Part shown: piece by piece, positions 57,571 to 60,074 of the stretch
How positions within the stretch are numbered: position 1 is the stretch's first letter
Layout: each line of letters starts with the position of its first letter
Origin: Marinobacter sp. BW6
GTDB lineage: Bacteria; Pseudomonadota; Gammaproteobacteria; Pseudomonadales; Oleiphilaceae
Assembly (NCBI RefSeq): GCF_008107725.1
Contig: NZ_VIRN01000064.1
Location: forward strand, 1,364,001 to 1,428,000
DNA: 64,000 nt
Direction: 5' to 3'
The notes under the pieces: generated by a model
What the model saw: the letters and a program-made list of their open reading frames with translations, nothing else
What the model was told of the DNA's origin: nothing
The model's database searches: none
Translations under genes and position numbers: made by a program

Positions 57571-58188
57571 CTAGTTGCTGTGTGGATCCCGCTGCAGCCG
57601 GATATCAAACCTTACGGCCAGCATGCGCATAGTCACGATAAAAAGCAGGCCAAGGGTCAGAGGCAGGACTTCATTATCCAGGAACCACTGACACACGAAA
57701 TACAGCCAGCATCCGGCAAAGGAAATGGACGCGTAGATCTGGTCCTTGCGGAAGATGTAGGGCACTTCGTTGCACAACGTATCCCGCAGTGCGCCGCCAA
57801 AGGTACCGGTCATGACTCCGAGCAGTGAGGCGATAAACCACGAGTGCCCCAGGTCGAGCGCCAGTTGGGCGCCAAGAATGGAAAAAACCCCGAGTCCGAT
57901 GGCGTCCGGAAACACGATTCGTGATTCCCTCAGCCGCTCGGCCCGCTGCCAGTAGCTGAAGATAACGGCCATGGCGAGAATAAGCATGGGTTGTTCCTCA
58001 TGCCTGATCCAGTAAAGGGGGTGATTATCCATGATCAGGTCCCGCAGGGTTCCGCCACCCAGGGCCGTGATAAATCCGATGGTAAATACGCCCACAGGAT
58101 CCATATTTTTGGAACGTGCGACGATCATGCCGGAAACCGCAAAAGCAACGATCCCAATCATTTCAAGTATGTAGATGATGTCTAGCAT
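57571..58188 (-). CDS. TRIC-type cation channel family protein (UPF0126/YicG)
   Basis: 205 residues, seven membrane helices in two pseudo-repeats. Each repeat has the glycine-rich signature: ITALGGGTLRDLIMDNHPLYW and MTGTFGGALRDTLCNEVPYIF. Prokaryotic TRIC proteins form trimeric K+-permeable channels. Earlier called UPF0126. The gene points toward the purine permease gene in the same direction with 151 bases between, so co-transcription is uncertain. Confidence 0.93.
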   Translation of the reverse strand: MLDIIYILEMIGIVAFAVSGMIVARSKNMDPVGVFTIGFITALGGGTLRDLIMDNHPLYWIRHEEQPMLILAMAVIFSYWQRAERLRESRIVFPDAIGLGVFSILGAQLALDLGHSWFIASLLGVMTGTFGGALRDTLCNEVPYIFRKDQIYASISFAGCWLYFVCQWFLDNEVLPLTLGLLFIVTMRMLAVRFDIRLQRDPHSN

Positions 58189-58382
58189 GATGGATCCCTA
58201 GGTAGAGCCAAGGGTTGGGCAGGCATGGCCACTCTGAGCGCGCAGGATAGCCGAAAAGACCTTGCCTTTCACCTTCAAGAGTCCTCTGGTGGCTCCCGGA
58301 AACCTCTGAACTGTGATCCATGACGACAGTTTCGGGCGTATCTTGTATCCAACTTACCTTTATCCCGTTGTACGGAGTTTCT

Positions 58383-58949
58383 ATGTCCTTGATGCGCCTG
58401 GCCTATGCCAGTGAAGCCACGTTCGAAGCCAAACCGGTGGAAAAGGGTGTTGAGCCCCACGTTGCACGGATTCTGATGACTTCCCGTAAGAACAATGCCA
58501 AAGACCAGTTGGTTGGCGGCCTTTATTACGGAAATAACTGTTTTTTTCAGTACCTGGAAGGTGAAGAGAACGCGGTGAGAAGCACCTACGACCGGATTTT
58601 GAAGGATGATCGCCATCGCAACATCGTGACTTTGATTGAGGAGCCATTGGGAAGCCGGACCTTCAGCAACTGGTCGATGAAATACGTGCCGCTGTCCCGG
58701 GACGTCAGGAAGTTTCTGGACGAGCAGGGGCTCGAATCCTTTGAGCCGGCGTCTTTCACTTCCGATCAGTGCGAAAAAATGATCGAGCTAATTCGCAATT
58801 CCAGCCACGATCAGAATATGGTTAACCATCACGATCGGAAATCAGTGGGCGAAACGCCTCAGGTATTGTCTTCCGGGATGAAGATGGGGCTGATTGCAGC
58901 GGGCCTGGTTCTCGTCGGGGCTCTGGTGGTTGGCGGTTCCATGCTTTGA
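58383..58949 (+). CDS. BLUF-domain photoreceptor with C-terminal membrane anchor
   Basis: 188 residues from ATG 58383 (GGAG at 58374-58377). The BLUF domain (about 1-98) has the conserved flavin-site Tyr in MRLAYASEA, Asn in SRKNNAKDQLVGGLYY, and Gln in CFFQYLEGEENAV; it binds FAD and senses blue light. After a ~45-residue polar stretch (residues about 118-165, no EAL or GGDEF domain) it ends with one transmembrane helix MKMGLIAAGLVLVGALVVGG. A BLUF domain joined to a C-terminal membrane anchor is an uncommon layout. Partner and output are unknown. Confidence 0.9.
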   Translation: MSLMRLAYASEATFEAKPVEKGVEPHVARILMTSRKNNAKDQLVGGLYYGNNCFFQYLEGEENAVRSTYDRILKDDRHRNIVTLIEEPLGSRTFSNWSMKYVPLSRDVRKFLDEQGLESFEPASFTSDQCEKMIELIRNSSHDQNMVNHHDRKSVGETPQVLSSGMKMGLIAAGLVLVGALVVGGSML

Positions 58950-59093: not shown

Positions 59094-60074
59094 ATGAAAG
59101 CCATCCTCTGCAAGGAATACGGCCCGGCCGAGACGCTGGTTATCGAAGATGTCCCAAGTCCTGAGGTGAAGGGTCGCGGCGTGAAAGTGCGCGTGAAAGC
59201 CGCCGGCCTGAATTTCCCGGATACCCTCATTATTGAAAACAAATACCAGTTGAAGCCGAGTCTGCCTTTTTCCCCGGGCGGTGAAATGGCGGGTGAGGTT
59301 ATTGAGGTTGGCGACAAGGTAACCCGTTTCAAAGTGGGCGATCGTGTTGCAGGGCTCACCGGTTATGGCGCCTTTGCAGAAGAAGTGATCGTACCGGAGC
59401 AGAACCTCCTGCCTGTTCCTGATGGCATGTCTGATGAGAAGGCAGCCGCCTTCACGATGGTTTACGGCACCTCCTATTACGCCCTGAAGCAGCGCGGCAA
59501 CCTCCAGCCTGGCGAGACGCTTCTGGTTCTTGGTGCCAGCGGCGGTGTTGGCCTGGCCACCGTTGAGCTCGGAAAGGCGATGGGCGCCAAGGTTATTGCG
59601 GCGGCGAGTTCGGCCGAAAAGCTTGCTGTTGCCAAGGAGGCCGGCGCCGACGAGCTGATCAATTACGCCGAGGAGCCTCTCAAAGACGCAGTCAAGAAAC
59701 TCACTCACAGCAAAGGCGTGGACGTGATCTACGACCCCGTCGGCGGTGACTTCACCGAGCAGGCTCTTCGTGCCATGGGCTGGAATGGCCGCCACCTGAT
59801 CATCGGCTTCGCCGCCGGCGACATTCCGAAAATTCCGGCAAATTTGACTCTTCTGAAGGGTTGTTCAGTGGTCGGCGTCTTCTGGGGCAGCTTTACCCAG
59901 CGCGAGCCGGAGGCCAGCGCCCAGAACATGATGGAGCTGATGAAGCTCTATGCCGAAGGCAAGATTGATCCGAAGATCAGTGCGGTTTACGAATTTGAGG
60001 ATTACGCAAAGGCGCTGGGGGCTTTGACCGAGCGGAAAGCGACCGGCAAGGTTGTGCTTAAAGTCGGCTCCTGA
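59094..60074 (+). CDS. NADPH:quinone oxidoreductase family protein (zinc-independent MDR)
   Basis: 326 residues. The MDR fold: GRGVKVRVKAAGLNFPDTLII, FSPGGEMAGEVIEVG and the nucleotide motif LVLGASGGVGLATVELGKAMGA. No catalytic or structural zinc Cys sites, as in the quinone oxidoreductase/enoyl reductase branch. It likely reduces quinones or enone acyl groups with NADPH in the cytoplasm. The convergent repeat and acyl-CoA synthetase gene follow. Confidence 0.92.
   Translation: MKAILCKEYGPAETLVIEDVPSPEVKGRGVKVRVKAAGLNFPDTLIIENKYQLKPSLPFSPGGEMAGEVIEVGDKVTRFKVGDRVAGLTGYGAFAEEVIVPEQNLLPVPDGMSDEKAAAFTMVYGTSYYALKQRGNLQPGETLLVLGASGGVGLATVELGKAMGAKVIAAASSAEKLAVAKEAGADELINYAEEPLKDAVKKLTHSKGVDVIYDPVGGDFTEQALRAMGWNGRHLIIGFAAGDIPKIPANLTLLKGCSVVGVFWGSFTQREPEASAQNMMELMKLYAEGKIDPKISAVYEFEDYAKALGALTERKATGKVVLKVGS

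Follow-up and report, generated by a model that had tools for sequence, protein, structure and literature searches.

A single-domain BLUF photoreceptor with a predicted C-terminal membrane anchor in Marinobacter, and a stand-alone EAL phosphodiesterase as its candidate partner

The window analysed here, a stretch of 64,000 nucleotides from Marinobacter sp. BW6, carries on its forward strand a gene for a small BLUF protein, the single BLUF match in the genome (Table 1). An upstream ATG at 58320, which would give a protein of 209 residues, was rejected as the start, as in three relatives (L042, L044 and L045) the frame opens only from the match to ATG 58383, leaving 189 codons; the latter ATG is also preceded by GGAG, 5 nt before it. 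A promoter and terminator scan around the gene returned one of each, both on the minus strand and at about the level of shuffled sequence. The Pfam BLUF model (PF04940) matches residues 3–100 at 91.7 bits, where the cut-off is 25 (E = 3.3e-26). The Tyr, Asn, Gln, Trp and Met residues that have roles in BLUF photochemistry are represented by Tyr8, Asn38, Gln56, Trp97 and Met99, and all five are kept in 49 of 49 aligned sequences, the window protein included, so the initial annotation was right to call the key Tyr, Asn and Gln intact. It was equally right that the protein has no covalent output domain: Pfam and NCBIfam detect no second domain in the 188 residues (NCBIfam itself gives no match), and Pfam finds no EAL within the chain, which is thus not a BLUF-EAL protein of the BlrP1 type.

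Table 1. Features of the BLUF locus (window coordinates) and EAL genes found beside BLUF genes at other loci
Feature	Position	Strand	Basis or remark
Gene for predicted tail-anchored BLUF protein, 188 aa	58383..58949	+	ORF (ATG 58383, stop end 58949), Pfam BLUF, aligned orthologues
GGAG, possible ribosome binding site, 5 nt 5' of ATG	58374..58377	+	Inspection only
BLUF domain, residues 3-100 (Tyr8, Asn37/Asn38, Gln56, Trp97, Met99)	58389..58682	+	Pfam PF04940, E 3.3e-26
C-terminal cap helices, residues 106-114 and 127-142, plus loop	58698..58808	+	AlphaFold2 model; mean conservation of 127-142 0.75
Flexible linker, residues 143-163 (21 residues)	58809..58871	+	pLDDT <50 at 145-163; conservation 0.48
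Predicted single membrane helix, residues 164-187, ending at the last residue but one	58872..58943	+	Model, hydropathy 2.38
Divergent neighbour, two Pfam Gly_transporter stretches	57571..58188	-	Pfam; standing Marinobacter neighbour
Downstream neighbour, zinc-binding dehydrogenase / quinone oxidoreductase family	59094..60074	+	Domain searches; standing Marinobacter neighbour
EAL beside BLUF, L124 Mangrovitalea	~190 nt downstream	Same strand	
EAL beside BLUF, L138 Burkholderiales MAG	~140 nt	Convergent	Contig end cuts EAL
EAL beside BLUF, L148 Ectothiorhodospiraceae MAG	~590 nt upstream	Same strand	

In the AlphaFold2 model (mean pLDDT 80.3) the BLUF fold is followed by a pair of cap helices, a linker that is disordered and a terminal helix at residues 164–187, for which the block means of pLDDT are 56 (161–170), 82 and 76. 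Its top PDB fold matches in Foldseek are PixD crystal structures (E = 2.6e-11, TM-score on target 0.84), and the top sequence match among solved structures is 1x0p (Tll0078; E = 3.2e-18). Pfam, AlphaFold2 and Foldseek therefore agree on a single-domain protein of the PixD type, with a BLUF fold and cap helices and without an output domain. The initial annotation had described the protein as standing in place of the free PixD form, which does not hold, since the soluble part is that form. Over its best 19 residues the tail has a Kyte-Doolittle mean of 2.38, where 1.6 is the customary membrane-helix threshold. As a single hydrophobic helix at the extreme C-terminus, it has the predicted form of a tail anchor; it is predicted to insert into the membrane, and the N-terminus would be expected on the inner, cytoplasmic side. 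Mean conservation is 0.82 in the domain, 0.75 in the cap helix 127–142, 0.61 in the tail helix and lowest, 0.48, in the linker. Within the tail, hydrophobicity appears to be conserved more than the actual residues.

This tail is a regular feature of the genus. A sample of 124 genomes, whose named relatives are nearly all Marinobacter, contains a BLUF match in 70, and in 66 of these 70 it is of the window type (one of the 66, G085, was assigned from match and frame lengths, its tail not being read). From genomes other than G067 (L076, which gave no ORF), G074 and G085, 77 genus BLUF ORFs were read, 65 of the window type, the window ORF included, and 12 others. The best 19-residue hydropathy lies between 1.88 and 3.17 in all 65 window-type ORFs and at or below 0.61 in the other 12, and in none of the 65 does the last stretch of 19 positions hold a charged residue. 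Together with the modelled helix, these values corroborate the single C-terminal transmembrane-type helix that had been proposed, as a prediction. Four genomes (G003, G067, G074 and G120) have other or partial BLUF matches only, the one in G074 containing a stop codon. G087 carries a tandem (L027:1495-2070 and 2167-2619), in which a close relative of 148 residues, without the tail, comes after a BLUF that has the membrane tail.

On the evidence of sequence comparison, the window protein belongs to a group of BLUF proteins from Gammaproteobacteria and Burkholderiales whose tails are a hydrophobic helix or, nearly always otherwise, short and basic. Of 135 BLUF ORFs, 111 score more than 100 bits against the family model, and 86 of these have a hydrophobic helix in the last 40 residues and 25 do not; below 100 bits it occurs in 2 of 24 rows, both from L155. 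Of the 25 helix-less high-scoring rows, 24 end in a short basic tail and one, the tandem copy of L027, in none. The lower-scoring rows lack a tail of at least 12 residues in 16 of 19 cases, a count that omits rows in which no W[SAHTQD]M-like motif occurs, and hence the two helix-tailed L155 BLUFs. Membrane-type helix tails are found in relatives from Mangrovitalea, Halopseudomonas, Alcanivorax, Dyella, Lysobacter, Massilia and others, and short basic tails, which in many cases contain Trp or Phe, in Microbulbifer, Thalassolituus and Ectothiorhodospiraceae; another eight long proteins, from seven genomes at the class level, comprise one helix and seven basic tails. In a tree of the domain only (65 rows, with many unsure branches), the two tail types require two changes. 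This tree uses 14 of the 65 genus rows and skips rows lacking a W[SAHTQD]M-like motif (L181, L187 and two L155 ORFs) as well as eight named rows, six of them for being short, partial or odd (L149 and L152–L157 among others).

A net positive charge was found in 31 of 31 basic tails tested. Amphipathicity reached p = 0.05 against shuffles of a tail's own letters in 2 of 31 (combined p = 0.011, for sequences that are related), and when a Microbulbifer member is modelled with AlphaFold2 its tail is of low confidence (last blocks pLDDT 53–57), and beyond helix 128–157 the tail forms no further helix of at least four residues. The term amphipathic helix was dropped on these grounds in favour of short basic tail. 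Because amphipathicity is weakly supported and the model has no confident tail helix, we put forward membrane attachment of the basic-tailed forms as a proposal.

Several loci in this wider set are unusual in other ways. L155, recorded as Streptomyces cinereus JCM 3040 (sequence010), has three BLUF frames within about 5 kb, distant from the group, two of which have a hydrophobic helix at the C-terminus (hydropathy 2.57 and 2.29). As the host is unexpected, the contig is possibly misassigned; given L155, the hydrophobic BLUF tail may have arisen twice. In L148 (5872-6501 and 6567-7013) and in L382/L383 (G651:C17:20211-21205) a basic-tailed long BLUF has a second BLUF, different and tail-less, close behind it, which looks like a pair acting jointly. 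BLUF proteins also occur on plasmids (57 records, all below 60% identity), and among the 15 matches listed the alignment reaches only the first 156 residues.

As regards possible partners, the divergent gene, whose Gly_transporter stretches we take to be of the TRIC/UPF0126 type, adjoins BLUF in 34 of 80 loci (cluster 8). Both this gene and the quinone oxidoreductase were set aside, because neither was seen within four genes of BLUF at the loci listed for other genera. At two loci the BLUF gene adjoins a gene for a DUF2238-type membrane protein (L125:6559-7158, by Pfam; L147:375-998, by clustering), and in Microbulbifer (L134, L136, L140 and L141) the basic-tailed BLUF lies near TPR-repeat and alpha/beta hydrolase-like proteins, identified by Pfam in L134 only.

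A different lead comes from loci outside Marinobacter. In three of 33 such loci (L124 and L126–L157, some with short flanks), an EAL gene adjoins the BLUF gene, in three different families, and by our estimate about 0.02 cases within 1 kb would be expected by chance in 33 loci if a genome of 4 Mb held one such EAL. No EAL of this candidate group was found beside BLUF in 20 loci of the order (L168–L187) or in 12 of the class (L372–L383), with flanks of up to 1.5 kb. A 528-residue ORF of G276 (L368:1387-2970) is a BLUF domain fused to an EAL of the candidate group. A second BLUF-like frame lies near this fusion on the opposite strand, and in L380 (G666:C42) a frame of 480 codons containing a different kind of EAL (E = 2.1e-22) has a short BLUF without a tail immediately behind it.

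With the three adjacent EALs as alignment query, the window's own genome yields their orthologue at G000:C23:366736-367485 (E = 1.2e-117), the one member of the candidate group among 26 EAL matches, the next of which has E = 3.9e-30. It has 262 residues, with a Cys-rich N-terminal stretch, and carries the motifs EALVRG, SINF, FELTE, DDFGAG, KLDM and AEGVE, which are of the catalytic type. Among solved structures it is closest to 6ih1/6ifq (E = 1.9e-77), which in the case of 6ih1 we take to be VcEAL of Vibrio cholerae, then to BlrP1 (2.7e-37), with others from 8.5e-19. The nearest NCBIfam model is RimA (NF052265), whose name refers to ribosomal S6 modification, at 323.1 bits and thus under its cut-off of 430; the ORFs next to the EAL in L188 look by eye LysR-type and dehydrogenase-like, not RimK-like. 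BLUF and EAL genes are both present in the genome, as for PapB and PapA, yet lie on separate contigs (C12 and C23) and so lack the linkage assumed for the papA and papB genes. The initial annotation had left the partner as unknown. It is still unproven, but neighbourhood, fusion and co-occurrence narrow it to a stand-alone EAL candidate, against which there is also counter-evidence. These gene comparisons, which fall short of proof, suggest the EAL phosphodiesterase as the best lead for a BLUF partner.

Within the genus, 59 of 124 genomes have both genes, 7 BLUF only, 18 EAL only and 40 neither (Fisher p = 1.3e-11); an EAL of the candidate group was searched for in the seven BLUF-only genomes and not found. 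On a tree built from rpoB for 112 of the 124 genomes (ten have no rpoB match at the limit, and G064 and G075 are incomplete), a model in which BLUF and EAL depend on each other gains an LR of 34.1 (p = 7e-7). NarJ, taken as a control at matches of about 1e-25 or better (78 of 111 genomes listed), also co-occurs with BLUF (Fisher p = 7.5e-7; tree-based LR 17.3, p = 0.0017) and with EAL (tree-based LR 9.9). The tests therefore overstate significance, and part of the BLUF-EAL signal is shared history or genome content, although among the three pairs the association is strongest for BLUF-EAL. Rhodopsin, considered as a control for a light-exposed lifestyle, was too rare (7 of 124 genomes).

In a sample of 390 genomes of the order, at thresholds of E ≤ 1e-70 for EAL (92 of 113 listed at 1e-40) and ≤ 1e-36 for long BLUF (26 of 123), EAL is present in 20 of 26 genomes with a long BLUF versus 54 of 267 without any BLUF. 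Genomes with short BLUFs only do not differ from the BLUF-less ones (18 of 97; p = 0.77). Outside the genus, EAL is found in 11 of 16 long-BLUF genomes versus 70 of 358 others (p = 4.6e-5). EAL is missing from 6 of the 26 long-BLUF genomes, and a long BLUF from 72 of the 92 EAL genomes. In a class sample of 266 genomes, EAL (1e-60) was found in none of seven BLUF carriers (≤ 1e-25), the window's own genome excluded, although L138 and L148, which by name also lie outside the order, do carry it.

It might be argued that lifestyle or genome content produces the co-occurrence as a side effect, the EAL being a RimA-type enzyme with other tasks. RimA is indeed the nearest NCBIfam model, EAL is frequent without BLUF, the NarJ control co-occurs too and the seven class-level BLUF carriers have no such EAL; we regard this reading as a serious if doubtful possibility. 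Against it stand the three adjacencies and the fusion, the higher LR of the BLUF-EAL pair (34.1 versus 17.3 and 9.9), and the missing association for short BLUFs. Since RimA is the nearest model and the EAL is common without a long BLUF, the candidate probably has other roles besides BLUF.

Our leading explanation, a hypothesis, is that the window protein is a PixD-type sensor anchored by its tail at the inner face of the membrane, whose partner is the stand-alone, BlrP1/RimA-like EAL and whose output is light-switched breakdown of c-di-GMP, a signal molecule associated with whether cells swim or settle. We give this reading a probability of roughly 0.45. Blue light would alter the hydrogen bonds around the flavin, as the conserved residues imply, and the change would pass to the C-terminal cap helices, by analogy with PixD, PapB and BlrP1. 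The cap helices would then act upon a separate protein, in Marinobacter most likely the one EAL of the candidate group described above, and the anchor would hold the sensor, and hence its partner, at the cytoplasmic membrane, on its inner face. Blue light could in this way switch c-di-GMP breakdown via a membrane-tethered complex, an arrangement comparable to a split, tethered BlrP1 or to PapB plus an anchor. The sequences establish the domain with its intact residues, the tail and its conservation, and the two tail types of the group; membrane insertion, topology, partner and direction of the effect we infer. The tail would serve as a tether rather than as a signal path, because the linker is flexible and the helix is swapped for a basic tail in sister lineages. 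It would be tempting to extend the idea to the whole BLUF group, built for the membrane via two interchangeable tails and acting as a light-driven anchor of EAL for local c-di-GMP control, the split and tethered counterpart of BlrP1; this broader version we consider rather unlikely.

Three other readings concern the tail and the output. The membrane helix itself might signal, with light altering its contacts within the bilayer with the TRIC-type neighbour, an unlinked transporter or a chemoreceptor. A small-xxx-small motif in 56 of 65 tails (a count without shuffle control) and the TRIC-type membrane protein gene next door in many Marinobacter loci fit this idea. However, the tail helix is less conserved than the domain and the cap helix, with the least conserved linker between them; the basic tail of sister lineages is probably too short and polar to span a membrane; and the TRIC-type gene is not within four genes of BLUF at the non-Marinobacter loci listed. 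Signalling by the helix is thus improbable. The same holds, in our judgement, for an output through a transcription regulator held at the membrane and kept off DNA in one light state. BlsA, which acts on Fur, resembles the soluble part (6w6z, E = 1.2e-16, and also a fold match), and in L143 (Massilia) a MerR-type gene lies directly downstream of BLUF, but this is one locus among the neighbours annotated in other loci, and in Marinobacter the neighbours are of the transporter and dehydrogenase types. A precedent for the MerR case is BluF, which acts on the MerR-type repressor BluR (PMC3509220). That the hydrophobic tail instead stays outside the membrane, buried in a homo-oligomer ring like those PixD proteins form with their partner PixE, or that the BLUF protein works alone, has those rings as a precedent, membrane insertion of the tail being a prediction, but is highly improbable given the uncharged, strongly hydrophobic 19-residue stretches in 65 of 65 tails, the basic alternative tails of the group, such as often occur at membrane surfaces, and a linker that is predicted to be disordered.

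The proposed tethered sensor with a separate EAL can be set beside several known systems. Cyanobacterial PixD proteins (Slr1694 and Tll0078) have the same fold and two cap helices and likewise no covalent output domain, but the matched chains, of 136–150 residues, correspond to the soluble part only and have no membrane tail. BlsA of Acinetobacter, which acts on transcription regulators, is also a single-domain BLUF, similar in sequence and fold, and its chain of 156 residues again matches the soluble part only. In BlrP1 of Klebsiella pneumoniae, whose EAL is the second-nearest solved kind to the candidate (E = 2.7e-37), BLUF and EAL form one fused protein, whereas the Marinobacter BLUF protein contains no EAL. 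The candidate partner resembles stand-alone EALs of both the RimA type, below whose cut-off it falls, and the 6ih1 type. The arrangement proposed here, a separate BLUF and a separate EAL, is that of PapB and PapA in Rhodopseudomonas palustris; according to a review, PapB, a short BLUF protein, forms a heterotetramer with the solo EAL PapA, BlrP1 is the fused form, and both are thought to signal through their C-terminal cap helices (PMC8846402). PapB is described there as short and as having no recognisable domain besides BLUF, with no anchor mentioned in the passages on it, and our likening of the two goes by this description (PMC8846402). The PapB-PapA complex is known physically, while the Marinobacter pairing is a prediction from gene comparisons.

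Single-domain BLUFs and BLUF/EAL pairs and fusions are thus already known, and what appears new is a single-domain BLUF with such a tail, perhaps a PapB/PapA-like system tethered to the membrane. The initial annotation's claim of novelty stands in so far as no natural BLUF with a membrane tail is described in the accessible parts of the open-access literature searched, including PMC8846402, PMC4844311, PMC3666943, PMC2654016 and PMC12558739, an earlier mention elsewhere being possible; it does not extend to rarity, as 66 of the 70 BLUF-bearing genomes of the genus have such a protein.

BLUF sensors are usually treated as soluble proteins. Membrane-bound BLUFs would supply natural membrane-targeted modules for optogenetics, and the predicted partner can be tested directly in Marinobacter, a culturable genus. 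Moreover, a conserved membrane-bound BLUF group would let non-photosynthetic marine bacteria signal light at a fixed site in the cell, and would raise the question of local light control of c-di-GMP.
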